From a virus: a stretch of DNA of 53,580 bases. The notes under the pieces were generated by a model, which was given only the letters and a program-made list of their open reading frames with translations, was not told where the DNA came from and did not search any database. The translations under genes and the position numbers were made by a program. Of the stretch, positions 3,981-21,247 are shown piece after piece (position 1 is the first letter of the stretch; every line of letters starts with the position of its first letter). The stretch covers positions 1 through 53,580 of the IMG/VR virus record IMGVR_UViG_3300015360_000055. One strand, written 5' to 3'.

Positions 3981-5183
3981 ATGTCTCTTCCGTTGCGGTA
4001 TCAAATTTTGACTGCTGAGCAGTTCTATACGTTGGCTAAAGGAGAAGCTATGGCGATTGATTTAGGGATTGATGAAGAAGTCGTTCTTCCACCAGAGTCC
4101 GTTACTGACGAAAAGAAAGTCGCAGTGAAGTTCGGGATCATCGGCGCAGGCCAAGGTGGGGGCCAGCTTGCTGACGCCTTCTGGCAGCTTGGATATCGCC
4201 GGGTCGCGGTGGTGAATACAACGACTCGGGACATGCAGCGTCTCCAGATCCCTGAAGCTAATCGTCACATTTTGAAGTCCGAAGGCGGCGCTGGGAAAGA
4301 TCCCGCTGTTGGAAAGAAGGCCGTCGAAGCCGAGACTGAAGAACTGATGCGACTCATCCAAGGTGCTTTCAAGAAAGACCTGGAGCACATTTTGATCTGC
4401 GTGGGTGCAGGTGGCGGCACCGGCTCCGGATCAGCTCTCCCTCTGATTAAGATCTGCAAAGAGTATTTGGTCTCCATCGGCGTTCAGAATCCTGAGAAGA
4501 AGGTCGGCGTGATCTGCACTCTACCCACTCGGGATGAGTCCTCGGCTGTCCAGCGCAACGCTCTTGAAACGATTCTCCCTCTTTGTGACCTGGCAGAAAA
4601 AGGTCAGCTCTCTCCTCTTGTGCTCGTGGACAACTCCCGCGTGCTCGCGATGTACGGCAAGGCATCGGTTGTGGATGTCTGGGGTAAGGCGAACAGAAAT
4701 ATTGCTTCACTCTTCAATGCCTTTAACGAATTGTGTGCTGCTGACGATGCGACCTGCCACGTTGTTTGCGATCCAAAGGACTATAAAACCGTACTTGAAG
4801 GCGGTATACTCGCATTTGGAAGGACCAAGCTTGAGAAGGTTGAAAAACCTACCGATGTTGCTGACGCCGTTCGCGATAACGTGAAGAAGGGTTTGCTCGT
4901 CGAGGGAATGGATCTTTCAAAAGCGAATGTCGGAGCAGGACTTCTGGTTTCAAACGGCGAAGGATTGGGAAGTGTCTCTCAGGAGTCTCTTGAGAATGCT
5001 TTCGGATCCTTGAACCGGTTGATGGCGCAAGGCCCTGAGACTAAACTTCACCGTGGAGTTTACGAAGCAGGAGCGGACGCTAAAGTTTATTTGTATACCA
5101 TTTTGGCCGGTATGGGACGCCCGTTGACACGGCTCCAGGAAATGCAATCAAAGGCTGGGGCTTCACACCCCATTGGAGGATAG
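3981..5183 (+). CDS. FtsZ/tubulin-family GTPase
   Basis: This is a phage-encoded member of the tubulin/FtsZ superfamily, GTPases that polymerise into dynamic filaments. The nucleotide-binding glycine motif is GAGQGGGQ (residues 55-62), and the family signature loop is GGGTGSG (144-150). The likely T7 (catalytic) loop is around D311 in GMDLSKAN, which departs from the usual NxDxxD. At 400 residues it has the expected length. An alternative ATG at 4050, preceded by a strong AAGGAG, would remove 23 residues and is a serious candidate start. Phage relatives (TubZ, PhuZ) segregate DNA or centre it in the cell. The position just before terminase and portal suggests a link to genome or capsid positioning, which is inference. 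Confidence 0.88.
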   Translation: MSLPLRYQILTAEQFYTLAKGEAMAIDLGIDEEVVLPPESVTDEKKVAVKFGIIGAGQGGGQLADAFWQLGYRRVAVVNTTTRDMQRLQIPEANRHILKSEGGAGKDPAVGKKAVEAETEELMRLIQGAFKKDLEHILICVGAGGGTGSGSALPLIKICKEYLVSIGVQNPEKKVGVICTLPTRDESSAVQRNALETILPLCDLAEKGQLSPLVLVDNSRVLAMYGKASVVDVWGKANRNIASLFNAFNELCAADDATCHVVCDPKDYKTVLEGGILAFGRTKLEKVEKPTDVADAVRDNVKKGLLVEGMDLSKANVGAGLLVSNGEGLGSVSQESLENAFGSLNRLMAQGPETKLHRGVYEAGADAKVYLYTILAGMGRPLTRLQEMQSKAGASHPIGG

Positions 5184-5184
5184 T

Positions 5185-5529
5185 ATGAAAAGAATCATGG
5201 AAGATAAGCACGGGTCCCCGATCGAATGCAAATTGAACGAAAGCGTGGATGGTTTCGGAATCCCAGGCAGCGAAAAGCTTGCTGAAGATTCTCAGATCGC
5301 TGAAGGCGAACGCCACGACTACAAGGGCTTGCTCGCTGGCTTGATGGACGCCGTTGAAGTTCACATGGCAATCCAAGCAGGCACCGCTGAAGAAGGCGCT
5401 GAAGATCCATTGGTCATGGTCATGGATGCAACCAAAGAAGCTCTTGCTCCAAAGGATGACGAAGGCTCCAAAGGTTCTGAAGACGATGCTCCAGCTCCTA
5501 TGGAATTGGAAGTACCTGCTGTCGAGTAA
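5185..5529 (+). CDS. small acidic protein downstream of the tubulin homologue, 114 aa
   Basis: The ATG at 5185 follows GGAGG by five bases; an upstream in-frame TTG at 5173 lies before that site and is rejected. The protein is strongly acidic with an Ala/Pro/Glu-rich C-terminal tail (EDDAPAPMELEVPAVE). No domain is recognised. It lies 1 base after the GTPase stop region and 3 bases before terminase, so it is co-expressed with both. It might be a partner or adaptor of the GTPase or of the packaging motor, though nothing in the sequence proves this. Confidence 0.65.
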   Translation: MKRIMEDKHGSPIECKLNESVDGFGIPGSEKLAEDSQIAEGERHDYKGLLAGLMDAVEVHMAIQAGTAEEGAEDPLVMVMDATKEALAPKDDEGSKGSEDDAPAPMELEVPAVE

Positions 5530-5532
5530 GTT

Positions 5533-7629
5533 ATGCCGCTCATAGACGAGGGCGGACGATACAGGTCAGTAAGAACCGAAGATGAATACGCTGAGCTTTT
5601 CCTCCGGGAGATTGACCTCATCCCTCCCGAGGAAAGGCAATTTGCATTTGAAGTTCTCAACGATTTTCTTGTCCAGTCCAACAGTCCTGCCCTAGAAGTT
5701 TCATCTCAGAAACTGTACCGGACCCCACCAGTGAAGATGGAGGAGTTTCTAAAGAATCCCTTTTATCTAGGTGCGTTCCACAAGACGATCTTTGAAACGA
5801 TCAAAGAAGATCTGACCGAAGTATTCGAAGGCAGTTATGTGCAAGCCATCTGGGGTGGGTCACTGGGTGGGGGTAAATCAACGGCAGGCGTGATCTCGCT
5901 TGTCAGAATGGTTTACGAGGCGAGCTGCCTTCGAAATCCTCACGAGACCTACAGCATCTCATCTTCCGATTACATCATGTTCCCTGGAGTTTCATCGACC
6001 GAGGACATTGCCGAACGAAACATCTTGGATAAGGTTCGCTTCATCATCAACGACAGCGAATACTTTCAAACTTACTTCCGTCCCGAGAAAGACTCGATGG
6101 CGAAAGGTATTTTGTTTCCGAACAAGATTCTGATCCCCCCGGGAGCTTCGAACTCAGGACAGATCTTGGGCGGTAACGTCGCAGGACTCTTTATCGATGA
6201 AACCAACTTCTTTCAGAAAAGAAGTAACGGGCAAGTCAATCCACACGAGCAAAAAGAAAACGTGGAAGTCATTTACGAGACCATCGTTCGCCGAATGGAG
6301 TCTCGTTTCAAAAAGCTTGGGAGAATTCCAGGCATCATCGCTCTGGCTTCATCCAAGACCACTCCGAATGCTTTTACCGAACGAGTGATCTTAAAGTCGA
6401 TCAACAAGTCTAACGTCTTTGTCCGGGAGAGAAGTGTTTGGGAATCTCAAACCACCAACACGTTTTCCGGTAAAAGGTTTCGTGTTGCCATCGGGACTGA
6501 GACTCGGATGTCGAAATTCCTGGGTGACGAAGAGCCTGATCCAGAGGGAATGAAAGTCATCGATGTTCCGGAAGAGTTCCGAGAAGCATTCGAAGACGAC
6601 ATCGATGGATCCATTCGAGATCACGGCGGCTACGCGACCGTCTCCATCACTCCGTTCATCACGAGACGCGAGAAGATTTACGAATGCGTGGACAAGACTC
6701 GCACGCATCCATTCACTCAAGAAGTCTGGGAACAAAGCGTCCCAGGCAACATCCAGTGGGAAAAACTTTGTCGGTTGAAGTCGGATGGAACTTACGAGCC
6801 TCTTCATCATCCGTCAGCGCCGCGTCACGTTCATCTCGACTTGAGTAAGAATCAGGATAGAACCGGGCTCACAGTCTCGTGTATTGGTGGCTACGCTCCC
6901 GTGCAGCGGTGGGGGAAGACTGACATTGAGATGGCCCCTCACATTCATGTGGACTTCACCTTGGCGATCCAAGCCCCCCTCGGCGGTGAGATTATGTATG
7001 CTGAGATCCGAAAACTCATTTACGAATTCAGTCAGCATGGATTCTTCATCAAGGTGGTCACAGCCGATCAATACCAATCCTTGGCACTTCTCCAGGCCAT
7101 GCGTCAGCAGGGTTATAAGACGAAGATTGTTTCTGTCGAGCCCCCAGGTGGTCCTTACGAATCACTCAAGCAGGCGCTCTATGAGAATCGGCTTTCCATG
7201 TACAACTATCCTCCTCTGACGAAAGAATTGAGAGAGCTTCAGAAGAACTGGAAGACTGGGAAAGTCGATCACCCGGATTCGAGCCGAGGTGGTAGTAAAG
7301 ATATTGCGGATAGTTTAGCCGGGGTGATCGCCACTCTGACAGAATCCGCTTACGGAATTATGGATGCCCCCGTAACGAAGGGGATCTCAGAGATTGTCAT
7401 GCAAGATGACGATGCCTGGATCCTGGACGGAATGCTTTCGGTGGGCAACACGAGTGATCCTTCCATTCCTGAATGGCGTCAGAATGCGGAAGAGATCCTT
7501 CGCGAAGATGGACAAAACGTCAACTCTCACCCAGAGTGGAGACAGAATGCTGAGAAAGCTCTGGATCAAGAACAGGGTAACAATTATGATTGGAAAAAGA
7601 ATTTCCAAATGCCATTTGTGGTGGGTTGA
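5533..7629 (+). CDS. terL: terminase large subunit
   Basis: This is the ATP-driven DNA-packaging motor and headful nuclease. The Walker A motif is GSLGGGKST (about 109-117). Walker B is LFIDE with D222-E223. The C-terminal RNase H-like nuclease has acidic residues at D436 (HLDLSKNQD), D512 (VTADQYQS) and D590/D593 (SKDIADS). The length, 698 residues, is at the large end for the family. The TTATG start follows the acidic gene closely and lacks a strong Shine-Dalgarno, so coupling is likely. No separate small terminase subunit is recognised in the window. Confidence 0.95.
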   Translation: MPLIDEGGRYRSVRTEDEYAELFLREIDLIPPEERQFAFEVLNDFLVQSNSPALEVSSQKLYRTPPVKMEEFLKNPFYLGAFHKTIFETIKEDLTEVFEGSYVQAIWGGSLGGGKSTAGVISLVRMVYEASCLRNPHETYSISSSDYIMFPGVSSTEDIAERNILDKVRFIINDSEYFQTYFRPEKDSMAKGILFPNKILIPPGASNSGQILGGNVAGLFIDETNFFQKRSNGQVNPHEQKENVEVIYETIVRRMESRFKKLGRIPGIIALASSKTTPNAFTERVILKSINKSNVFVRERSVWESQTTNTFSGKRFRVAIGTETRMSKFLGDEEPDPEGMKVIDVPEEFREAFEDDIDGSIRDHGGYATVSITPFITRREKIYECVDKTRTHPFTQEVWEQSVPGNIQWEKLCRLKSDGTYEPLHHPSAPRHVHLDLSKNQDRTGLTVSCIGGYAPVQRWGKTDIEMAPHIHVDFTLAIQAPLGGEIMYAEIRKLIYEFSQHGFFIKVVTADQYQSLALLQAMRQQGYKTKIVSVEPPGGPYESLKQALYENRLSMYNYPPLTKELRELQKNWKTGKVDHPDSSRGGSKDIADSLAGVIATLTESAYGIMDAPVTKGISEIVMQDDDAWILDGMLSVGNTSDPSIPEWRQNAEEILREDGQNVNSHPEWRQNAEKALDQEQGNNYDWKKNFQMPFVVG

Positions 7630-7634
7630 ATAAT

Positions 7635-9458
7635 ATGGGTATCGGTTCACAATCAGTTGAATTCATCCGGCAGTTCTTTCGTCAGACCGAATACGATCGC
7701 GCTCCTTACGTTCCGGCAACGGCCTCGGGCGGAATGTCTAACAGCTCCTCCTCATTCTCCTATGGCATGACAGGCGGAAGCCTTCACGGTGTCGCGGATT
7801 ACCTGCGACTGGATGCTGACATTGTTGCTCGCTACATGGATTATGAGGACATGGACGACTCACCCATAGTTTCAAGCTGTTACGATATTTACGCGGATGA
7901 TGCGACCCAGATCGATCCACAAACCGGGAAGTCTGTCTGGATTAACTGCGAGGACGAAGACATCCGAGCTGAGCTTGACACCATGCTTCATAAGCAGCTC
8001 CACATCGAGGAGCACATCTGGGGAATGACCCGGATGATTTGTAAGTACGGAAACCTTTTTCAAGAGATCGTGGCCAAGCAAGAGCAAGGCGTGATCGCAC
8101 TCAATACTTTATCTCCCCCCACGGTTCGAAGAATTCAGGTTCCAAAAGAAGTTGGCTACGATCCTGCCAAGCCTGAACAGAAGGAAATGAACTGGGACAC
8201 GCTCGGATACATTTACGATCCACGCGGAGTATTTAAAGTCACTACAAAGCAATTCATCGACGAGTTGAAATACAAAATTTCAGGTGATGTTCCCAAGGAT
8301 CGCCCAGCAGGTTGCGCCATATTCGAAGGCTGGGAAGTGGCTCACTACCGCCTCCTCGGAAAGACACCTGACTCTGCTTATGGATTCGGAATCTCCGAGC
8401 CTGCACGATGGATCTTCAAGCGTCTCTTGCTCCTGGAAGACTCAATCATTCTTCACCGTTTGACTCGTGCTCCGTCTCGTTACGCATTCTATGTGGACGT
8501 GTCAGGTGTGCCACCGAATGAGACCCCGGCCTATTTGAACCGCGTGAAGCAGGGCTTAAAGAAGTCCAAGTTTGTAAATCCAAACTCAGGGAAGATGGAT
8601 CAGAAGTACAACCCCATCTCTCAGGACGAGGATTTCTTCTTGGGTGTTCGCGACGGAAAAGAATCCACCCGCGTGGAAAGTCTTCAGGGTCCGATCTACG
8701 ATCACATCGAAGACATTAAGTTCTTTGAGAATAAATTGTTTGCTGCTCTCAAGGTTCCAAAGCCCTTCCTGACTTATGAAGAGTCTACCGCGAAGACCAA
8801 TCTTTCCGCAGAAGACGCTCGTTTTGCTCGCACCGTTCTCCGCATTCAGCGCGAGACCCGCAACGGACTCAAGCGTGTTTGTAAAGTTCATCTCGCCGCC
8901 AAAGGGATCAACCCAGACAATGTTGATTTCGAAGTCTGCATGTCTACTCCGAGCGCGATCTTCGAACTTGCGCAGCTTGAAATTAAAGCAGCAGAGCTTG
9001 ACCTTGCCGAGAAGTACACGGGCTGGGCTGACAAGTACTGGATCAAGACTCACATCTTGGGCTGGTCTGATGACCAGGTTCGCGAAGCAGGCCAGCCTGG
9101 TGAAGACGGCGGTTCGAGTGGCGGGAGTGGAGATCTCCAGGCTGCCCTCGATAAGCGCGGAACTCCAGGCTCAGGCGGGGGTGAGAAGTCCAGTTCATCG
9201 AGCCCTGAAAAAGAAACTGTCATCGCAACCGACGCCGATACGGTCGGAGCCGAAGTCGCATCGAAGGCAACACGCTCAGACATCATCATGAGCGCCGTAA
9301 AGAGAAACACGGAGAAGCTCCTGGAGCGTCTCGAAAAGTCTCAGCACAAAACGTCTGACAAATCTTCAGATAAGAAATTGAAAGAGATCGCTGAAGCATT
9401 GAAAGACTTGAGGCATACGGTTGATCGCACTCAGACTAGCGGAAGAGATCGTAAGTAG
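7635..9458 (+). CDS. portal protein (T4 gp20-like)
   Basis: The 607-residue protein forms the dodecameric ring through which DNA enters the head and to which the tail joins. It has the portal-type core, with SSCYDIYADDATQ near residue 80 and a long helical stem and clip region. It then has a low-complexity Gly/Ser-rich linker (GEDGGSSGGSG) and a charged C-terminal helix. The in-frame start at 7590 lies inside terminase, so I use ATG 7635, five bases after the terminase stop. Its place directly after terminase is standard for myoviruses. Confidence 0.9.
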   Translation: MGIGSQSVEFIRQFFRQTEYDRAPYVPATASGGMSNSSSSFSYGMTGGSLHGVADYLRLDADIVARYMDYEDMDDSPIVSSCYDIYADDATQIDPQTGKSVWINCEDEDIRAELDTMLHKQLHIEEHIWGMTRMICKYGNLFQEIVAKQEQGVIALNTLSPPTVRRIQVPKEVGYDPAKPEQKEMNWDTLGYIYDPRGVFKVTTKQFIDELKYKISGDVPKDRPAGCAIFEGWEVAHYRLLGKTPDSAYGFGISEPARWIFKRLLLLEDSIILHRLTRAPSRYAFYVDVSGVPPNETPAYLNRVKQGLKKSKFVNPNSGKMDQKYNPISQDEDFFLGVRDGKESTRVESLQGPIYDHIEDIKFFENKLFAALKVPKPFLTYEESTAKTNLSAEDARFARTVLRIQRETRNGLKRVCKVHLAAKGINPDNVDFEVCMSTPSAIFELAQLEIKAAELDLAEKYTGWADKYWIKTHILGWSDDQVREAGQPGEDGGSSGGSGDLQAALDKRGTPGSGGGEKSSSSSPEKETVIATDADTVGAEVASKATRSDIIMSAVKRNTEKLLERLEKSQHKTSDKSSDKKLKEIAEALKDLRHTVDRTQTSGRDRK

Positions 9459-9509: not shown

Positions 9510-12500
9510 ATGACACAAATGGCAGGCGCATCTATTCTTAATTTATTACTTGAGGACTGGATAACAGAAGTCCGAGTCGTTCGCGTTAAGAGAGTGCCTG
9601 CACGAATTCGTATGAAGCGTAAGCGTTACTACCGAAAGCGTAAGGCTCGCATCAAACGAATGTCTAGGATGAGACGTAGGAAGCCTCGGGCCAAAAGGCA
9701 AGCGAAGCGTAGAGCTAAGATTCGCAAACGAATGAATATTAAGCCAGGGAGCAGGAGGCGTATCCGGATGTCCTCTGCTGATAGATTTGGGAATCTTATG
9801 GAGGGTAAGCAAGTGAACGAAACCAAGGATTTGATTCGCGGATTTGAAAATGTTTCTCGTTTGGTAGACCAACTTGTTGGTGTGCTGGGGAAAGAGAAAG
9901 TCAACGAATCGCTTGGTAAGACCAACCACTCCCTGGTTGAAGATTTTTACCCCGCCGAATTGCCAGCCTTCGCCGACCATGGCGACATCATTTTACACGA
10001 AGACTTCGAAGCCATTCTTGGAATCAAGAAGCCCCTCCAGGAGAACAAGAAGCCTGCCGACTACTCCCAGATGAAGGCCGACGCGGTTGCCATGATCGCG
10101 AACATCAAGAGCGGAAAAGTCGATGAGAGCGAAGCTCTACAAATTTTGACTCTGATGACAGAAGGTCTCGACAAAGCTGTTGAGCGCGTCATCACCGAAA
10201 GCCCTGAGCTGGAAGAATCCGGAGAGACAAACGGCGATGATGACAGCGCCCAGTCTTCTTACGAAAAGCTCGGCCTTGAGCCGATGATGAAGAAGCTTGC
10301 AGCCAATCCTGCGCAACTGATCAAGAAGGTCGCTGACGATGACGGCGATGTAGAAGTCAAAGTCATGAAAGTGACCCACGACTCTCATAAGAACATGATT
10401 GGCATTCATCTCTATGATCCTAGCGAGCAAGAGATTGATCAAGCCGTCAACGATGCTTTCCGTGATGGATTCGAGTACGTCTGGGTCGAGTATCCGGCGA
10501 AGATGAACAACTCTGTCTCTGAAGCTAAAGGTTCACATAAGGTTGGATCTAAAGTTAAAGTGAACATGGGTGTTGATTCTGGCAAGACTGGCGTTGTTGT
10601 AGACAAGTCAGCCATCAAAACTAATGGTCGTGGAACTCCAGAAATTGAAGGCCACTACAAGCCGATGTCTACTGATGATGTCGCGATTAAGTTTGATCAC
10701 AATGGCAAGCACGCTGTTTACAGTAAGTCTCACTTGACTCCTGTTTCCGACAGCAAAGAAGAGGCCATCTCCGAGGCTGGTAAAAAAGGTCAGAAATGGC
10801 ACATCATTGACTGGGCTGGCAACAGCGTGTTCGGCGGTGATACTTTTGATTCGTTCGATGACGCAGAGGAATTCCTCAGCGTTAAGCTTGGCGACGATTA
10901 CGAAACTGATCGCGGAGAATACGATGTCGTGCAAGGTAAGACGACTGACAAGAAGTACCTCGATCCCAAGGATCCACGCGCCGGTAAAAAGATTAAGTCT
11001 GAAGCCGAAGATGAAAAGGTGAATGTTCGCGAGCTGAGCCCGATGGTTGTTCAGTATCTCTCTACTGCTCTTTGGTCATCCAACGATGGATCAAATGAGC
11101 AGGGCGGCGATCCACTTGATGACAACTATGACATCTCTGACATCGCTGAAGAGTCCGTCAAGAAGGCCACAGAAGATTGTGACTCCTTCTACGAGAAGGC
11201 CGAGAAGATCCTCGGAAAGAACGGTGACGAGATCACGGCCATTGAATCCGAATCACTGGGCCACGATTTCTGGTTGAGCCGTAACGGTCATGGTGCTGGA
11301 TTCTTCGATGCTGATTACCTCGATGAAGATATGAGAGATGCTCTTCAGGATTTAGCTAAAGAGTTTGGTGAGGTGAACGCTTACGTTGCAGACATCGGCG
11401 ATGAGCCAGGAAAGATCTTCATTGAATCTTTCGAGGCTGACACTGAAGAAGATCCACTCGTTGAGATGGCTCGTATCAATAAAGAAGCACTCTTGAATGA
11501 ATCCAAGAGTGAGATGGTGATGAAGATCAAGCAAATGGAAGCTGATCTCCACAAAGCCATGCACGAGAAGAAGATCTCCGCTCCAAACGGACAAGAGATC
11601 CCATTCAAAATCATGGGTCACGACGAAGCCGAAACCGTGAAGGAAAAGAGCGGCAAGGTATTTGACTACCCAGAGATGACTCACTTCAACATCGAGTCAT
11701 GGGAAACGATGAAGCTCTCCATGACTGCCGATGGCCGCATTATTCCAGAAGGCGTTGCCCTCAACGGCAAAGGCGTTCCTGCTGAAAAGATCATCGCTGA
11801 CGTTCTCAAGAACGTGAAGAACTGGTCCGCTCACGTTGCCAAACTCAAGAGCGAGAAGGCCACGAAGAAGGAAGCCAAGCAGAACGAAGCCAAGGCCGAT
11901 GATGGCGCTGTTGAAGTTGCCTATGACGGAACTGTTGATCGTGGTGAAGGTAAAGAACATGTGGCAGTGATTCGCAAGGGCGATAAAATCATTGATCGCA
12001 TCCATGGAAAGACAAAAGAAGCTGCTATATCCGCAGCTCAAGAAGCGGCCAAGACTCCAAAGGCAGAGTCCGCTCCTGTCACCGAGATGGCTCGCCAGAC
12101 CACTGATGTGGTTGCTGCTGCCTTCGTTGCAGGAGAGCCCAAGAAGGACAAGAACAACCACACTGATGGAAAGTCTTTCTTCCTTCATGGCAACGAGATT
12201 GCCAAGATTGAAAAGGGTCAGCTCTCGATCACGAACGCAGGCTGGGAAACCACAACGACTCGTGAGCGGTTGAACGGAATCATGGTTGCTGCTGGTGTCG
12301 GTAAGAAGGTCTCCCAGGAAAAGGGCAAGCAGATGCTTGACGGCAAAGAGTGGGACGGTGAGTGGACCAAGGTGGGCAAAGTAAAGCCTCCTACGCCTCC
12401 AACCCCAGACAAGCCAGTCAAAGAAGCTGTGGCAGATCCAAAGTCCGTCAAGGGCAAGGATATGACCCCCGCTAATAAAGCCGAGATGGGCAAGAGTCTT

Positions 12501-14885
12501 CCAGGCAAGTTCGTTCGCTCAGGCGATACCGACACTGCCAAGAAGATCATGAAGCATCATGAAAGCATCAGTGAGAATAAGGGTGATGGCAAGCCACGCA
12601 TCATGACCACTTACGACATCGTCACCCCGGAGTCTGCTTCCCGTGGTGATGTTGCTGAGAACGGTTGGGAAGATGAGATCGGACACGACTGCACACCTGA
12701 CGAACATGATATCGAAGACGGAAAGACTGTTGTCGATTTAGCGGTCGAGTTTCTGAAAGATAAGGGCGTACTTGAGCCGTCATCAACTCAGTTTCATACC
12801 GGGATTTGGTATAACACCATAGATCCAGAAACTGATTACCAGGACGGTTCTGAAAAGAACTACGCCTATCATCTGTACGACTTTACTCCAGAGCAGGAGA
12901 AGCAAGTCTATGGTGGCGTCATGGGTAAAAAGGAAGCTAAAAATCCTGAAACCCGTAGCGGCGACCTCACCGAGAAGACGGGCGACGGCTACACCTTCAC
13001 GGATAAAGAATCTCAGATGGAATCTCTGGCGGAATACATTGACGAGCACGTCACGTTGGAGACTGAGTACAGAACTGAACACGAAGACTCCGGCAATGAT
13101 TATCTCGATGCCATGATGGATTCGGTAAATACCGAAGAATGTCTTGGTATGAACATGACCAATAACGTTCTTTGGGCACCGCTTGAAGCGGCTAAGGATG
13201 CTGGTATTCCAGTGAAGGAATTGGATCAGATTTTAAAAGATCTTGTCACTGCTAAAGCTTCTGGTGTTTTTTATCCAGACAACGCAGTCTCTTCCACTGG
13301 CCAGCTTGGAGAAGTTGAGACTCAGCTTGACAGCATGGGCGGGACCGTAAACGGTAAAAAGGTAGATGATGTTTTCGAGATTTTATCCGCTGGCCTTGAT
13401 GAGAAAGATAAGAAGGCTGTCGCACGGAAGCTTCAAGAGGCTTACTGGGATGGCAAATCAAATTACGCTTATGGCGACGCTGCCTACGACACTTGGATGT
13501 TCGTCGTTGATGAAGACGCTTTGATCGACGCCATTAATGAAAAACTGAAAGAAACTGGAAAGCCTGAACTTAATCTAGATGGTGAGACTGAAGAGTCCAC
13601 TCAGGTTGAGTCTGTCCAGAAGAAGTTGAAAGAGTCTCACTCTGACTCAGATCTCCAGGGCATGAGCGCATCTGCTTTGCTGAAGCTGATCCGCAGTAAG
13701 GAAGTCACTTACGCTGAAGTGGACAAGGCTCTTGAGAAGGAAAAAGACTTCCGGAAGCTTGACTGGATCGGTGACCAACTTGCGAAAGACGATCTGAAGA
13801 AGCCCGGCACTCCAGTTGATGAAGCCAGTGCAGAAAAAAACTTTGAAGTCTGGATTAAGACTCCAATGCCATCCACTACCGAAGTAGATGCAAAGTTTGC
13901 CACCAAGGCTGAAGCTGAAGCCCACATGGCCGAGCGGAAAGCTAAAAATCCTGATTGGAAAATCTGGATCGAAACAACTTCTGGACGAGCTAAGATGTCA
14001 AAGGCATTCCCAGAAGCTGGAGAGACGGACGACACCGGTCAGACAGAAGCTGCGCCAGTCGATCAAGAGCTTAAGAGCAGTGTTGAGACTTCGGTTGACC
14101 ATAAGAAATGGAAGGCTAAGCACAAGGCTCCAGTTCAAAAGGAATCGCTCGCAGTGGAGATCGACGGACAGAAGTTCGGCCTTACCACTGAAGAACTCAA
14201 CGAAGAAGGCATCGTTGCCGATCTCGCAGCGGCCATCGGTGGTTCGTCTGAGCCAGAGAAGCTCGAAGAACTCAAGACTGAGATCGCCGATTCCATGGAC
14301 ATGGACAGTGGTCGATACTCTTCATGGGGAAAGTCGGGAAGCTTTGAAGCTGATGGGACTGAGTACCAGTTCATCATCAGCGAAGACGAAGCCGAGAAGA
14401 TTGCCAAAGACATCGTCACTCAGGATCTTGAGGACGACCCATATGAGATGTTCAGTCATGACTTTTTGAATGAGCATCTTTATGTGGGTGACACTGACAA
14501 GCGTTTGATCGCAAACGACGATGCCGACGCACGCATGGACGGCATGAGCGATGAAGACATCATCGATGAAGTTGAAATGCAAGATGAGTACGAAGCTGCT
14601 GAGGGCAAAGCAAAGGAAAAAATCCTTGATAAAGCCAAAGAGCAGATCATGAGCACGCACTACGACTCAGTTTATGAGCAGCTCGACAAGGATCCAGTGG
14701 GATACTTTGAAGACATGGGCGGGGCCGAAATGGTCAAAGACATGATCGAGAAAAATCTTCTGAGTGTGGACGTGAAGGCAGCCGCAGAGGAAGCCGTCAG
14801 GATCGACGGTTGGGCGCACTTCTTGTCACACTATGACGGAAACTACGAAACCACTCCGGGTGGCGTTGTCTACTTCAAGGAGTAA
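9510..14885 (+). CDS. giant multidomain protein, 1,791 aa, between portal and prohead protease
   Basis: The first 86 residues are extremely Arg/Lys-rich (RKRKARIKRMSRMRRRKPRA), like small basic core proteins of some phage heads. The rest is acidic and modular. Residues near 424-475 hold a WAGNSVFGG...FDSFDDAEEFL domain. Residues 512-640 hold a DFWLSRNGHGAGF domain, and 1033-1140 a YDIVTPESASRGDVAENGW domain. Residues 1545-1791 end with GWAHFLSHYDG. I know each of these types as separate small phage proteins of unknown function. A second start, GTG 9813 behind GGAGG, would give a form without the basic head. The position suggests a head-internal protein. No enzymatic motif is seen. Confidence 0.85.
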   Translation: MTQMAGASILNLLLEDWITEVRVVRVKRVPARIRMKRKRYYRKRKARIKRMSRMRRRKPRAKRQAKRRAKIRKRMNIKPGSRRRIRMSSADRFGNLMEGKQVNETKDLIRGFENVSRLVDQLVGVLGKEKVNESLGKTNHSLVEDFYPAELPAFADHGDIILHEDFEAILGIKKPLQENKKPADYSQMKADAVAMIANIKSGKVDESEALQILTLMTEGLDKAVERVITESPELEESGETNGDDDSAQSSYEKLGLEPMMKKLAANPAQLIKKVADDDGDVEVKVMKVTHDSHKNMIGIHLYDPSEQEIDQAVNDAFRDGFEYVWVEYPAKMNNSVSEAKGSHKVGSKVKVNMGVDSGKTGVVVDKSAIKTNGRGTPEIEGHYKPMSTDDVAIKFDHNGKHAVYSKSHLTPVSDSKEEAISEAGKKGQKWHIIDWAGNSVFGGDTFDSFDDAEEFLSVKLGDDYETDRGEYDVVQGKTTDKKYLDPKDPRAGKKIKSEAEDEKVNVRELSPMVVQYLSTALWSSNDGSNEQGGDPLDDNYDISDIAEESVKKATEDCDSFYEKAEKILGKNGDEITAIESESLGHDFWLSRNGHGAGFFDADYLDEDMRDALQDLAKEFGEVNAYVADIGDEPGKIFIESFEADTEEDPLVEMARINKEALLNESKSEMVMKIKQMEADLHKAMHEKKISAPNGQEIPFKIMGHDEAETVKEKSGKVFDYPEMTHFNIESWETMKLSMTADGRIIPEGVALNGKGVPAEKIIADVLKNVKNWSAHVAKLKSEKATKKEAKQNEAKADDGAVEVAYDGTVDRGEGKEHVAVIRKGDKIIDRIHGKTKEAAISAAQEAAKTPKAESAPVTEMARQTTDVVAAAFVAGEPKKDKNNHTDGKSFFLHGNEIAKIEKGQLSITNAGWETTTTRERLNGIMVAAGVGKKVSQEKGKQMLDGKEWDGEWTKVGKVKPPTPPTPDKPVKEAVADPKSVKGKDMTPANKAEMGKSLPGKFVRSGDTDTAKKIMKHHESISENKGDGKPRIMTTYDIVTPESASRGDVAENGWEDEIGHDCTPDEHDIEDGKTVVDLAVEFLKDKGVLEPSSTQFHTGIWYNTIDPETDYQDGSEKNYAYHLYDFTPEQEKQVYGGVMGKKEAKNPETRSGDLTEKTGDGYTFTDKESQMESLAEYIDEHVTLETEYRTEHEDSGNDYLDAMMDSVNTEECLGMNMTNNVLWAPLEAAKDAGIPVKELDQILKDLVTAKASGVFYPDNAVSSTGQLGEVETQLDSMGGTVNGKKVDDVFEILSAGLDEKDKKAVARKLQEAYWDGKSNYAYGDAAYDTWMFVVDEDALIDAINEKLKETGKPELNLDGETEESTQVESVQKKLKESHSDSDLQGMSASALLKLIRSKEVTYAEVDKALEKEKDFRKLDWIGDQLAKDDLKKPGTPVDEASAEKNFEVWIKTPMPSTTEVDAKFATKAEAEAHMAERKAKNPDWKIWIETTSGRAKMSKAFPEAGETDDTGQTEAAPVDQELKSSVETSVDHKKWKAKHKAPVQKESLAVEIDGQKFGLTTEELNEEGIVADLAAAIGGSSEPEKLEELKTEIADSMDMDSGRYSSWGKSGSFEADGTEYQFIISEDEAEKIAKDIVTQDLEDDPYEMFSHDFLNEHLYVGDTDKRLIANDDADARMDGMSDEDIIDEVEMQDEYEAAEGKAKEKILDKAKEQIMSTHYDSVYEQLDKDPVGYFEDMGGAEMVKDMIEKNLLSVDVKAAAEEAVRIDGWAHFLSHYDGNYETTPGGVVYFKE
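9800..9815 (+). promoter_or_regulatory. internal ribosome-binding site and GTG start in the giant gene
   Basis: GGAGGG at about 9800 followed seven bases later by GTG 9813 (MNETKDLIRGFENV) is a better initiation signal than the one at 9510, which has only weak purines upstream. Translation may start at both places, giving products with and without the Arg-rich head. Confidence 0.45.
12945..12957 (+). repeat. partial copy of the dispersed repeat (13 bp)
   Basis: CCTGAAACCCGTA matches the first 13 bases of the 15-bp repeat, within the giant gene, where it encodes NPETRS. It may be chance on its own; it is listed for completeness with the stronger copies. Confidence 0.3.
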
Positions 14886-15232: not shown

Positions 15233-15643
15233 ATGGATGCCAATAAGATTGCCAAGTTAGCCAAAGACCTGTCTCGCCCAGGACACAAGTCTGTAGCCAT
15301 TGCTTCTGCGCTCGGGATCCACTCGGACCAGATCCCCAATCTGATTGCGCGAGAGATTCGGAACGGAAATTTACTGGGTCTTTCTCAGGAAGAGCTGACC
15401 AATCTCTCGAAGAATTTAGGAGATGAAAGTCTTTCGAAAGTGATCGCTGCGAAAACCGGAAATAAAACGTCTGCTCGCAAAGAAGACAAAACGTCACGCA
15501 CTTCTAAACAACTTGCAGATAGTCTTGAAGCTTTGCACAAGAGGCTATACGATAGAGTTGTAAAGGGTAAACCTAAGGCTAAGCTGGTCAATGGTAAGAA
15601 AACCAAGATCCCAGGATTCGCGTATCACTTTAGGAAAGAGTAA
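15233..15643 (+). CDS. hypothetical head-region protein, 136 aa
   Basis: An AGGAAAG ribosome-binding site precedes the ATG. The protein is basic, with helical segments and a Lys-rich C-terminal part (KGKPKAKLVNGKKTKIPGFA). Its position, immediately before the prohead protease, is where T4-like phages keep small core proteins (gp67/gp68), so a prohead-core role is possible, but I see no sequence signature for it. Its stop is followed directly by the ATG of the protease gene. Confidence 0.6.
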   Translation: MDANKIAKLAKDLSRPGHKSVAIASALGIHSDQIPNLIAREIRNGNLLGLSQEELTNLSKNLGDESLSKVIAAKTGNKTSARKEDKTSRTSKQLADSLEALHKRLYDRVVKGKPKAKLVNGKKTKIPGFAYHFRKE

Positions 15644-17437
15644 ATGAAAAAAGTTCTGGTCGATCTCGCAGGGAGTATCAAGCTTCAGCTTACTGAAAGC
15701 ACCGAAGGCGGAAAGCATTTAGTTGCTCGCGGTGAATTCGGTCGCGCTGATGTACCCACGCAAAATCGCCGGGTCTACCCGCGTAAAGTTTGGGAACGCG
15801 AAATTCAACGCATCAATGAGGCCATCGCATCCGGCAAAGTTCTTGGTGAACTCGATCACCCAGCCGATGGAAAGACTTCTCTGAAGCGCGTCTCGCACAT
15901 CATGACCGGTCTCCACATGCAGGATGACGGTGTGATCATTGGCGAAGCAAAAATTCTTGATAACGAATATGGCCGTCAGTTGAAGTCCATTCTTGAAGCA
16001 GGCGGCGCTATCGGTGTTTCGTCTCGCGGTATGGGTTCAACAGCCATGGGTGAAGACGGCTCGGAAGTTGTTCAAGAAGACTATCAATATATGACCCACG
16101 ACTTCGTGGCGGATCCAGCAGTTCTGACTTCGTATCCGAAGTTTCAGACTGAAGTTCGATGGATCAAGCCAGACTCGGTGGTGACAGAGAATTCCTCAAA
16201 GGAGACTGTGATGAATAAGGTTGAGCAAAAGATTGAGGCAGTGGCTCCAGTCGTTGAGACAAAAGAAAAAGAACAGGACAACAACGCTGTTCCGGCTGAA
16301 GTGAAGCCAGAAGAAGTGAAGCCTCCTGAAGCAAAGATTGAAGAGCCAGCAGCAGAAGTTCTTGCTCCAGTTGCCGAGAGCCCAGCTCTTGAAGCAACTG
16401 CTGAAGCGAACATCAAAGCTGAAGCAAAAGATCCACATGGAGCTGAAGATCTTGAGCCTTCCAAGCATGACGAGCCTTCGGACGCCAAGTACAAAGAATT
16501 GAAGAAAAAGAAACTTGCCGGGGACGAAAGTCTCAAGGGCAAGACTGATCTCGAATTGGCAACTATGGCGGGGATGAAATCTATGCACGGCGAAGCTATC
16601 GTCACCGATGAGGCTCAGAAACTTCGTGAATCTATCAAAGCTGAACTCCAGGCTGACCCTGCTTTTGCTGCTGCTCAAATTGCGCTTGAGAGCATCAAGA
16701 CTGCCGTTCGTCCCTTCCTTCTCCCTGAAGCGACTGCTTCTGAGAAAGATGAAGAAATTAATTCTCTCAAAGTTGAAAACACTGCGCTCAAAAATAAGAT
16801 CGTAGAGCTTGGCGCTGTGGCCAACCGTTTGGGCGCTCATCTTCACTTCGAGCGCAAGATCGCCGAGATGAAAGAAGATCGCGAAGAGATGGCCGCAATT
16901 GTCGGCAAACAAAAACTTGAAAGCGTGAAACACGTTGACTCCATCCTTGTTGAAGCAAAGAAGACTCTTGAGTCTCGCAAGGAAGATAAACGCGCAAACG
17001 CCCTGGAAACAAAGCGTCTGGAATCGAAGTTCGAAGCCAAGATGAAAGCTTTGGAAGACCAGAACAAAAAATTAGAAGAGTCTCTGAAGAGCACTGTGTC
17101 TCTCAGCAAAGAACTAGGTATTAAGCTTTACATCTCGGAAAAAACGCGTGGCAATCCGAATGCAAAGAAGATTAAGGAACTTTGCGAAGGCAAAACAGAA
17201 CGTAAAGATGTTGATAGCATTCTTGCACGATTTGCTGTTGCCCCGTCCGCTGGTGAAGAATACAATGCTATTAAGAGAAGGTTTGAAAAATTAGCAGGAA
17301 CATCTCTCGTTGAAGATCAACTGAAGGAGACGGGGGCAAATCGCGCTGCTTCAGGTTCTGATGAAGAGGGTGTTCTAGGTGAGATGACAGACTTGTTTCC
17401 GGGTGCGACCTTGGACCAGGTCAAAGCACTGATGTAA
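15644..17437 (+). CDS. prohead protease fused to a scaffold-like coiled coil
   Basis: Residues 1-175 are a T4 gp21-type serine protease of prohead maturation. The likely catalytic His is H72 in GELDHP, and the likely Ser is S126/S127 in GVSSRGMGS, with the expected VSH at 83-85 between them. Residues about 190-300 are a Pro/Ala/Glu-rich linker. From about 300 to 560 the protein is a long coiled coil rich in Glu, Lys and Leu, as in scaffold cores (gp22). In T4 these are separate genes, so the fusion means one protein builds and then digests the core. The capsid gene follows. Confidence 0.88.
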   Translation: MKKVLVDLAGSIKLQLTESTEGGKHLVARGEFGRADVPTQNRRVYPRKVWEREIQRINEAIASGKVLGELDHPADGKTSLKRVSHIMTGLHMQDDGVIIGEAKILDNEYGRQLKSILEAGGAIGVSSRGMGSTAMGEDGSEVVQEDYQYMTHDFVADPAVLTSYPKFQTEVRWIKPDSVVTENSSKETVMNKVEQKIEAVAPVVETKEKEQDNNAVPAEVKPEEVKPPEAKIEEPAAEVLAPVAESPALEATAEANIKAEAKDPHGAEDLEPSKHDEPSDAKYKELKKKKLAGDESLKGKTDLELATMAGMKSMHGEAIVTDEAQKLRESIKAELQADPAFAAAQIALESIKTAVRPFLLPEATASEKDEEINSLKVENTALKNKIVELGAVANRLGAHLHFERKIAEMKEDREEMAAIVGKQKLESVKHVDSILVEAKKTLESRKEDKRANALETKRLESKFEAKMKALEDQNKKLEESLKSTVSLSKELGIKLYISEKTRGNPNAKKIKELCEGKTERKDVDSILARFAVAPSAGEEYNAIKRRFEKLAGTSLVEDQLKETGANRAASGSDEEGVLGEMTDLFPGATLDQVKALM

Positions 17438-17477
17438 AAGGTCGTTACAGAAAACACAAGGAGTGAGAAATAAACGT

Positions 17478-18974
17478 ATGGAACAGCGTAAACTTCAAGA
17501 AATGAAGTCGGACCTCTCTAACGAGGGATTTGTCCGCAACCCACAACGTGCGGCTTTGGTCGAACGTTGGAACAAATGGATGCCACAGAAAGATGCACAC
17601 GGTCGTGCTCTTGATATGAATCCTTATCGCAAGTATTGCTTGGCTCAGTTGTTCGAGAATCAACTCGGCGAACTCAAGCAATTCCGCGAGAAGCACCTTT
17701 TGGGCGAAGACACCACCACGGTGAATTCGGCACCATTCATCAAGTACACCTTCCCGCTTCTTCGCCGGGTGTGGCCTTCGTTGATTGCCCCAGAAATCGT
17801 TGGCATTCAGCCAATGTCTGCTCCTGTCGGCGCTGTATTCTACTTCGAGTTGAAGTATGGCGACAACAAGGGCGCAGTGGCTTCTGGCGACAAGCTCGTC
17901 AAGAACTTCAACCGCGCTTACTCTTCTGAGTACATCGACGGTGAATCCCTCGGAACCGGCGACGGCGTTGCAACCGTCTTCGCGTCCACCCTCGACTGGA
18001 CTCCAGTTCGCGCAAGCACTGTCACTGTGACTGCTGGTTCGATCTCTGGAACTGATAACGGATCTGGCGTCATCGCTGGCACCGGCATCTCCGGAACCGT
18101 CAACTACGTCTCGGGCGCAATCAGCGTGACCCTCTCCGCAGCTCCTGCTAACGGCGTGGCTGTCAGCGCGACCTACCAGTACAACACTGAAGGTTCGAGC
18201 AAGATCCCAACGGTCAACGTGGACATCGCACTGGTTGCTGTGACCGCGAAGAGCCGCAAGATCAAAGCACTTTGGTCCAGCGAAGCTGCTGATGACTTGA
18301 AGGCACTCCACGGTGTGGATGCTGAACAAGAACTCGTAGCTGGTGTTGGTTCTGAACTCGCTCTCGAAATCGATCGTGAGATCATCGACGATATCAAGAA
18401 CGGTGCAACCGGCGCGTCCACGACCTACAACATGACCGTCCCATCGGGCGTTCGTGAGTTGGATCACATCCGTGGGATGTTGACCCCCCTCACCCTGATC
18501 TCTAACCAGATCGGCAAGAACACTCTTCGTGGACCAGCCAATTTCATGGTGATGAGCTATGACATTGCAGCTCAGATCGAGCAGCTCTCGACTGATGGTT
18601 TCTTCCGTCCTATCTTCGCAGGGGACGCAGAAGCTATGGCCAAGGTTGAAGGTCCACAGACCTTCGGCATCATGAAGATGGGCACCGTGATGAGCCGCTA
18701 CATGGCTTACAAGGATCCTTATCTTGAGTCCAACAAGATCGTCATGGGTTACCATGGTTCGAGCTTCGTTGACCAAGGTTACATCTGGGCTCCATACGTC
18801 CCGCTGCAAATCAGCAGCACGTTCCTGGATCCAAACGATTTCAAATTCCGTAAGGGGATTCGTACTCGTTATGCTAAGTTGCTTGCCCGTTCGGAATTCT
18901 ACGGAGTTCTCTCGCTCAGCAACTTGACCACGCTCTCTCCTGGTTCCTTCGGAGCCGCTTCTACCCTCTACTAA
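17478..18974 (+). CDS. major capsid protein (T4 gp23-like, HK97 fold)
   Basis: The 498-residue protein shows the gp23-type motif EIVGIQPMSAPVGAVFYFE near residues 105-123 and a C-terminal P-domain ending in a Ser/Leu-rich tail. LGE (75-77) is a plausible protease cut site of the T4 type (L/I-x-E), leaving about 421 residues. Residues about 157-236 form a beta-rich insertion starting GTGDG and ending in TYQYN, like the one in the tail sheath. ATG 17478 is preferred over GTG 17463 because AAGGAG abuts the latter. A strong terminator follows. Confidence 0.92.
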   Translation: MEQRKLQEMKSDLSNEGFVRNPQRAALVERWNKWMPQKDAHGRALDMNPYRKYCLAQLFENQLGELKQFREKHLLGEDTTTVNSAPFIKYTFPLLRRVWPSLIAPEIVGIQPMSAPVGAVFYFELKYGDNKGAVASGDKLVKNFNRAYSSEYIDGESLGTGDGVATVFASTLDWTPVRASTVTVTAGSISGTDNGSGVIAGTGISGTVNYVSGAISVTLSAAPANGVAVSATYQYNTEGSSKIPTVNVDIALVAVTAKSRKIKALWSSEAADDLKALHGVDAEQELVAGVGSELALEIDREIIDDIKNGATGASTTYNMTVPSGVRELDHIRGMLTPLTLISNQIGKNTLRGPANFMVMSYDIAAQIEQLSTDGFFRPIFAGDAEAMAKVEGPQTFGIMKMGTVMSRYMAYKDPYLESNKIVMGYHGSSFVDQGYIWAPYVPLQISSTFLDPNDFKFRKGIRTRYAKLLARSEFYGVLSLSNLTTLSPGSFGAASTLY

Positions 18975-20321: not shown

Positions 20322-21247
20322 GTATGGAAAAAGATCCAATCTTAAAACTGATTGACGAGTCCTATGCAGTCTTCGAAGAGAAGGCTCCTCTCGTTACCAA
20401 GATCGATGGACTCCCCTACCCGGAGTACGTCTCTCTTCTGATCTTTGCTGACGCATTCAGTGATGTGGCTCAGAATGACTACCCAACCGTTGCCGAAAAG
20501 ATTCAAGTGCCTGGGAAGTCTCTGCTTAGGAATGTGAAGGACTACTTCCAGAGTATCGATTTAGACGTGAACGAATTCGTGGACGACACCATCGGTCTCG
20601 ACCTATTGGACCGCATCAATGATCTTTGGGGTGAGAACTTCTCTGTAGACGCGCTTCTCCAATACGACAAAGAAGCCCTGGTGACGATTGTTCTGATCTC
20701 TTTGGGTCATGACATCAAGCTGGATCCATCGGTAAAGCAACTCCTGAAAGATAGCGATGCTAAGGAGCCGACCACGGCCAGCCTAGATATGGATCAGGAT
20801 GAGCGCCGGTATAAGTCTGCTTATGCGGCCCTCAGTGAGATTTCCGGACTCAAGGCTGAATCGCGTGACGAATTGTCTGAAGGCTTCATGGACTTCTTTT
20901 CCAGCAAGTCAGACGAGCCTAAGGAGCACAAGGGCGATCAGAAGGCATTGAAGCTCGTTGAATCTATTTTAAAACAATGCAAGCTCAGGTATCATTTAAG
21001 CAAAGAGAAGGGCGAAGAGGGGACTGTTTTTCGTCATCAGATCACGATTGATAAAGAACATTACGTCCTCAAGTCGTACATTATCTCTGGAAGCGGTCAC
21101 CTGAGTTCAGTGCTGTGGGACAAGAGTGAGAATGATTTTCTGGTGGTAGTGACCATCGGTTACATAAAAGATTATTACGCCCTGATCGCATTCGGTCGTC
21201 AGAGGCTCAAAGCATGGATGGAGAAAGAACATGAACGATCAGAATAA
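20318..21247 (+). CDS. hypothetical protein next to the neck gene, 309 aa
   Basis: I do not recognise a family. The first 170 residues are acidic and helical (DESYAVFEEKAPLVTKI; DPSVKQLLKDSDAKEP). After a charged linker comes a compact beta-rich domain of about 100 residues (YHLSKEKGEEGTVFRHQITI to YYALIAFGRQRLKAW). It overlaps the next gene by 17 bases. Its place among neck and joining genes suggests a virion or assembly role. Confidence 0.6.
   Translation: MSMEKDPILKLIDESYAVFEEKAPLVTKIDGLPYPEYVSLLIFADAFSDVAQNDYPTVAEKIQVPGKSLLRNVKDYFQSIDLDVNEFVDDTIGLDLLDRINDLWGENFSVDALLQYDKEALVTIVLISLGHDIKLDPSVKQLLKDSDAKEPTTASLDMDQDERRYKSAYAALSEISGLKAESRDELSEGFMDFFSSKSDEPKEHKGDQKALKLVESILKQCKLRYHLSKEKGEEGTVFRHQITIDKEHYVLKSYIISGSGHLSSVLWDKSENDFLVVVTIGYIKDYYALIAFGRQRLKAWMEKEHERSE

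Follow-up and report, generated by a model that had tools for sequence, protein, structure and literature searches.

Polyvalent proteins of phages and conjugative elements were described by Iyer et al. 2017 (PMC5512222), who proposed that they are processed by a zincin peptidase within the chain, a domain that is common but not universal among them (PMC5512222). The T4 internal proteins IPI-III and Alt enter the head by means of a capsid targeting sequence and are substrates of gp21 (PMC9026906, PMC12373910), which cleaves after L/I-x-E (PMC9026906). Injected T4 internal proteins inhibit type IV restriction enzymes (PMC12373910), so that the head type considered below already offers an example of packaged antirestriction proteins. 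In the giant phage SPN3US, prohead protease gp245 recognises a short motif in several head proteins, preferring Ser at P1'; in the account consulted it removes propeptides, with no mention of several mature proteins being made from one chain (PMC10052503). Finally, phage P1 puts a cleaved protein, DarA, into its head (PMC5512222).

We analysed a 53,580-nucleotide stretch of viral DNA, hereafter the window (IMG/VR virus record IMGVR_UViG_3300015360_000055, positions 1 to 53,580), in which a long mosaic protein encoded among head genes combines features of polyvalent proteins and T4 internal proteins without some features of each. Like polyvalent proteins, it joins many unrelated domains in one chain, domains that are also found alone or in other combinations; its gene lies near late virion genes, its relatives include an ArdA domain and its injection with the DNA is proposed. 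Unlike them, it is built from small phage proteins, most of which have no known function, and it has a head-core N-terminus beside a gp21-type protease; the predicted cutter is the prohead protease. It shares predicted L/I-x-E type sites and T4-type head genes with the T4 internal proteins, and a head-packaged, injected anti-restriction role is proposed here for it as well, but T4 uses one gene and one leader per cargo, whereas the mosaic puts many cargoes on one chain. Short-motif prohead-protease sites like those of SPN3US head proteins are in the mosaic predicted only, and head-borne defence against restriction, as in P1 DarA and Hdf, is in the mosaic a proposal; DarA and Hdf are different proteins. 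In the literature searched, outside which most subscription papers lie, no description of a prohead protease freeing several cargoes from one chain was found; 'phage polyprotein' and close forms were also absent, which says little on papers outside that literature.

The mosaic gene and its head-gene locus

The ORF proved to be real and open throughout its length (Table 1), and the four motifs that the sequence-only reading had picked out occur along the 1,791-aa chain in the order it gave: WAGNSVFGG and SFDDAEEFL at residues ~436-456, DFWLSRNGHGAGF at ~586-598, YDIVTPESA...AENGW at ~1035-1053 and GWAHFLSHYDG at ~1767-1777. The same reading had placed the gene between portal and prohead protease, and the neighbours bear this out, with a T4-type portal and a terminase-like ORF 5' and a gp21-type (Peptidase_S77) protease 3'. 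The protease ORF (597 aa) has the Peptidase_S77 domain in its N-terminal part and a scaffold-like C-terminal part, and we propose that this protease cuts the mosaic polyprotein. The window major head protein has a conserved candidate cut site, LLGE↓DTTT (↓ marks the predicted cut), and head proteins of the clade keep [LVI]GE↓D or ↓A roughly where the cut would be expected from T4 gp23. Portal and head protein place the phage in the wide T4 relationship, far from isolates, as matches in isolated phages were all below 60 % identity, with ~35 % the best among the matches listed.

Table 1. Features of the mosaic ORF and its surroundings (positions in the window)
Feature	Residues	Position	Strand	Remarks
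118-aa ORF 5' of terminase		5173..5529	+	pairs by position with the 338-aa WAGN gene of L003's phage
Portal protein, T4-type		7590..9458	+	phrog_213 E 7e-58; true start probably a later Met
Whole mosaic ORF		9510..14885	+	open for 1,791 aa; relatives at same locus
Core region 1	1-98	9510..9803	+	short N-terminal segment ending LLLE↓D, then basic stretch
Core region 2	99-236	9804..10217	+	LPxF...LGIKKP
Module A	237-338	10218..10523	+	part 283-326 recurs in L004 and in L009 polyprotein 1
Predicted protease sites at module borders		10521..13823	+	Phi-x-E↓A/S/M/N; putative cutting
Segment B	339-422	10524..10775	+	flanks VSE↓A and ISE↓A
Module C, WAGN	423-498	10776..11003	+	stand-alone 63-71-aa proteins
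Module D, DFW	499-639	11004..11426	+	phrog_1915 E 2e-20
Module E	665-793	11502..11888	+	recurs at 571-689 of L040 polyprotein
Module G	860-957	12087..12380	+	phrog_554 / Pfam Kyano_Gp96
Segment H	972-1022	12423..12575	+	GKxMTxxxKAxMGKSLxGKFVRSGDTDxAKKI; between modules in L003 and L004 too
Module I, YDIVTPESA	1023-1140	12576..12929	+	separate relatives, E 6e-6
Module J	1156-1351	12975..13562	+	L003 second ORF; twice within L009 second head-region mosaic
Segments K and L	1376-1502	13635..14015	+	flanks LKE↓S, VDE↓A, FPE↓A
Module N, GWAHFLS	1545-1791	14142..14882	+	very acidic; separate 317-aa ORF in L040
136-aa ORF between mosaic and protease		15233-15643		no PHROGs match
Prohead protease, T4 gp21 type		15644..17437	+	phrog_207 E 3e-42; Pfam Peptidase_S77 E 1e-16
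Major head protein, T4-type		17463..18974	+	phrog_138 E 4e-65; start probably the MEQRKL Met
Second head-region mosaic, 794 aa		21231..23615	+	residues 294-541 related to L009 polyprotein 1 and L007 polyprotein

Several further features of these loci were observed. A Tubulin/FtsZ-family GTPase gene (window 3981-5183; PF00091 E 1.4e-14) lies 5' of the terminase, and a similar gene was seen by eye at the matching place in L003's phage (L042:14985-16223, minus strand). The 118-aa ORF and the 338-aa WAGN gene with which it pairs gave no BLAST match, the likeness of their N-termini being by eye only. A basic C-terminal end resembling KxKIPGFxYxFRK is common, by eye, to the 136-aa ORF, L004:6938-7354 and L040:11233-11652. 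The ORF after the head protein in L003 (L003:11714-13345) matched profiles of a Mom-like DNA modification protein (phrog_1384 E 5e-27) and an HNH endonuclease. Intein-like insertions were noted by eye in relatives' portals (L002, 3293-7048; L004, 919-3144; L043, 13519-16173; L013), proteases (L007, 7315-9975; L013) and terminase (L042, 9399-12518), and are apparently absent from the window copies of the three genes. The protease-scaffold ORF L004:7357-9969 has an extra block of ~270 residues between its protease and scaffold parts that the window copy lacks. A D-x-[FW]-G-x-P motif followed by Glu recurs in several genes (window 5173-5529 and 21231-23615; L042:12849-13958 and L042:13958-14974; L003:18843-19484; L009:16718-18931), near the N-terminus in some and, in the second mosaic, towards the C-terminus; it is a possible candidate for a second head-targeting signal.

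Relatives, modules and shuffling

A whole-protein search of viral contigs found no relative of the mosaic; relatives were recovered via portal and head protein queries. At the matching locus these uncultured relatives encode single proteins of 1,075-2,222 aa or have the chain divided between ORFs. The chain of L003 is split in two ORFs (1,075 and 948 aa), L004 and L009 each have a single chain (1,127 and 1,216 aa, respectively) and L040 has a 2,222-aa chain plus a 317-aa ORF. Module order differed from core 1 - core 2 - C - D - E - G - N in the window to core 1 - D - E - core 2 - G - C in L040, where N occupies its own ORF. Modules also pass between polyprotein 1 and polyprotein 2, as illustrated by module J (L003 second ORF, L009 second mosaic) and by residues 294-541 of the window second mosaic. 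Because relatives hold their own shuffled versions at the same locus, the mosaic is not an assembly accident. That the ORF at the head locus is a mosaic of exchangeable modules we regard as established. The contig is metagenomic, as might invite the explanation that assembly or annotation fused separate genes; with independent contigs carrying uninterrupted ORFs of 1,075 to 2,222 aa with homologous parts at the same locus, such an artefact is barely credible. The isolates SP-15, LIS04, Mel-JY01 and immuto, whose portals and head proteins are related, have only short or metabolic genes between portal and protease, and the expansion therefore looks specific to the clade among the phages examined.

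Approximately ten modules are present in the single ORF. The sequence-only reading named four of them as stand-alone proteins elsewhere, and searches by segment left none of these without a separate homologue: small phage proteins were found for DFW, YDIVTPESA, GWAHFLS and WAGN alike, and a fifth module (860-957), which that reading had passed over, is also a separate phage protein elsewhere. Stand-alone WAGN genes (module C) occur in uncultured phages; the module is also found at 1918-1988 of the L040 polyprotein and, in L003's phage, in the separate 338-aa gene near the terminase. Module D stands alone in Caulobacter, Klebsiella, Cronobacter and other phages, in uncultured phages and in plasmids, and its gene in Caulobacter phage C1 sits in the terminal repeat region. 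Pseudomonas phages, both T7-like and others, have module G in a gene of its own, for example gene 3 of Pseudomonas phage FMS (Ghunavirus), 5' of the phage RNA polymerase gene. The relatives of module I comprise one Pseudomonas phage and one Erythrobacter phage. For module N, the sole stand-alone form known here is a 266-aa gene of one uncultured phage (L041), tblastn against named phages and plasmids having returned nothing; tblastn of module J against named phages was similarly negative. Part of module A is present in L009 polyprotein 2 (from comparison of the L009 copies with each other), no relative of segment B was found, and segments K and L have at most a weak relative (1476-1566 with L005).

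As a separate observation, the unrelated uncultured phage L041 encodes a 2,444-aa ORF containing module D (L041:10337-17671, minus strand), located between terminase-like and portal/protease-like genes. By eye, it has other recurring linkers (SRKAA / ASKRTA-like), and possibly represents the same strategy with a different protease.

Where context was read, stand-alone module genes lie among runs of small hypothetical genes, and some are in early-type gene clusters. Genes placed in this way are generally expressed early in such phages. The stand-alone modules are presumably made in the cell. The mosaic might likewise be a non-virion protein, synthesised in the course of infection and working in the cell that produces it, with its head-operon place incidental. 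That the portal-protease position is kept in several relatives across wide sequence distance, and that modules are common to the second head-region mosaic, makes this very improbable.

Core region 1 displays a net charge of +33 and terminates at NLME↓G. Residues 1-231 are 57-64 % identical in L003 and L004, and the core region is homologous in L003, L004, L009, L025, L040 and L043. An LLE, LIE or LVE close to the N-terminus is kept in L003, L004, L009 and L025, whilst L040 and L043 have modules inserted between core regions 1 and 2, which lie hundreds of residues apart. The N-terminal region had no PHROGs matches up to E 1, known T4 core proteins included. A comparison of the core N-terminus with core-like proteins from relatives further away did not reach significance either (probability 6.9 %).

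In T4, core genes 67 and 68 lie between portal and protease. The mosaic gene shares this position with gp67/gp68, but it is far longer, has modules of unrelated origin and gave no sequence match to them. This position, the very basic N-terminal region and the inserted block of the L004 protease-scaffold protein could all reflect a greatly enlarged structural core or internal scaffold, whose modules do no more than occupy or shape the prohead before being cut up and lost, without acting in the host. Against this, the modules are homologous to small proteins of unrelated phages and plasmids, ArdA is present in relatives and the four isolates named above have only short or metabolic genes at the locus; we consider a purely structural role quite unlikely.

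Predicted protease sites at module borders

Predicted sites follow E338, E422, E639, E664, E859, E972, E1022, E1375 and E1438, with a weaker candidate after E1155 (LTE↓K). We compared 137 clustered BLAST borders in 17 proteins with circularly shifted borders, considering 20 residues outward of each. The motif [LIVM]xE[ASGM], a cut site of the T4 gp21 type, was present at 49/137 borders versus 28.6 ± 4.7 expected (z 4.3, p 0.0007), an enrichment whose weight is limited by the shortness of the motif and the Glu-richness of the protein. Neither this p value nor that of an earlier, coarser test (p 0.03 only, with a K-x-E control enriched as well) comes from one pre-set test, because motif classes were refined between tests. 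Four of six controls were flat (reversed motif and the [LIVM]xD, [LIVM]xK and [LIVM]E versions); the remaining two were weakly enriched ([KRDNQST]xE[ASGM], z 2.3; [LIVM]xxE[ASGM], z 3.4), and part of the border signal is therefore general E-[ASGM] richness of linkers. Independently of borders, [LIVM]xE[ASGMN] occurred 103 times in the polyproteins against 71 ± 8 in local shuffles, and 37 times in control ORFs of the same window against 37 in shuffles.

The ends of stand-alone homologues fall 0-5 residues from a site at 4/5 borders checked, where ~8 % of positions have a predicted site this near; the choices in this comparison were made after the data were seen. Starts projected from stand-alone proteins were 426-428 for module C (site E422), 860 for G (E859) and 1027 for I (E1022), and the projected end of D was 635-639 (E639), whilst near the start of D (501-506) there is only KSE↓A at 498, which is not a strict site. 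In module G, M860 aligns with the initiator Met of the stand-alone proteins, with VTE directly before it. This coincidence is the sharpest evidence for the predicted protease sites in the linkers.

These data bear on whether the protein might be packaged and injected whole, as an uncut polyvalent protein whose parts separate after entry or never. Phage polyvalent proteins near virion genes are a known precedent for such a route, and relatives split the chain into at least two ORFs, therefore cutting is not needed to separate every module. The border motif enrichment and its coincidence with stand-alone protein ends speak for cutting instead, and the zincin peptidase that might process a polyvalent protein was found by Pfam neither in the window protein nor in the relatives searched; no other enzymatic domain was identified by Pfam either. 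Uncut injection is, in our judgement, unlikely. A phage polyprotein in the strict sense, i.e. a packaged chain that the prohead protease cuts into many co-injected proteins and whose cut sites serve as recombination joints, has in our view an even chance of being correct. With cut sites as joints, anti-defence cargo could be acquired, dropped and rearranged between the two head polyproteins of the phage.

Putative cargo functions and delivery

Pfam and PHROGs searches revealed no domain of known enzymatic, antirestriction or other anti-host function in the window protein. In four relatives (L003, L004, L005 and L007), however, the polyproteins include ArdA (PF07275; Pfam E 3e-18 to 9e-21), and the L004 domain matches the solved ArdA structure 2w82 (E 6e-7). 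ArdA is implicated in countering restriction (PMC5512222), and these predicted domains are the one direct pointer to function. In the same four relatives, the ArdA-containing modules have a C-terminal part that is similar to the C-terminal half of module N. We do not claim module N as a true ArdA, given a weak 2w82 profile match (E 0.25) from a profile that included rows from ArdA-containing proteins.

Structure prediction by segment, a check suggested in the sequence-only reading, yielded a compact, confident AlphaFold2 model for module D (pLDDT 88.5, pTM 0.86), the last strand of which ends near the predicted cut; module D is thus confidently predicted to fold independently. The module N model was mostly helical and of moderate confidence (pLDDT 83, pTM 0.67). 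A fold search of both against the PDB returned no matches at E ≤ 0.001, and the fold therefore gives no function. Modules D, J and N are strongly acidic, with net charges of -25, -24 and -36, respectively. DNA mimicry by acidic charge is known for ArdA, and it is speculation on our part that the charge of these modules would fit such mimicry.

Sequence comparison supports the location, the protease, the identity of the modules, their independent copies and shuffling, and the enrichment of border motifs. The earlier proposal of a head-borne polyprotein that delivers several early-acting proteins with the DNA is upheld in part, as regards separate modules, head-operon place, ArdA in four relatives and border motifs; packaging into the head, cutting, injection and anti-host action are inferred. 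The reading we favour, and regard as rather probable, is a prohead-core polyprotein with exchangeable cargo that is packaged, cut in the prohead and injected. The basic core region would bring the chain into the prohead core, in place of T4-like small core proteins, and the gp21-type S77 protease would cut the Phi-x-E linker sites during prohead maturation, freeing the modules. Freed modules would stay in the head, packed with the DNA, and on injection would immediately target the defences or the metabolism of the host. The mosaic probably serves to bring several anti-host proteins into the host together with the DNA.

If this is true, tailed phages would deliver host-takeover proteins by a polyprotein strategy, and the head gene cluster of this clade would be a catalogue of pre-packaged cargo. 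Small proteins of the cluster without known function would become candidates for action in the first moments of infection, and the phrog_1915, phrog_554, WAGN, YDIVTPESA and GWAHFLS families, so far without an assigned function, would gain a testable role. One route by which T4-type heads exchange cargo would also become visible, namely joining modules at protease sites and not by separate leaders.
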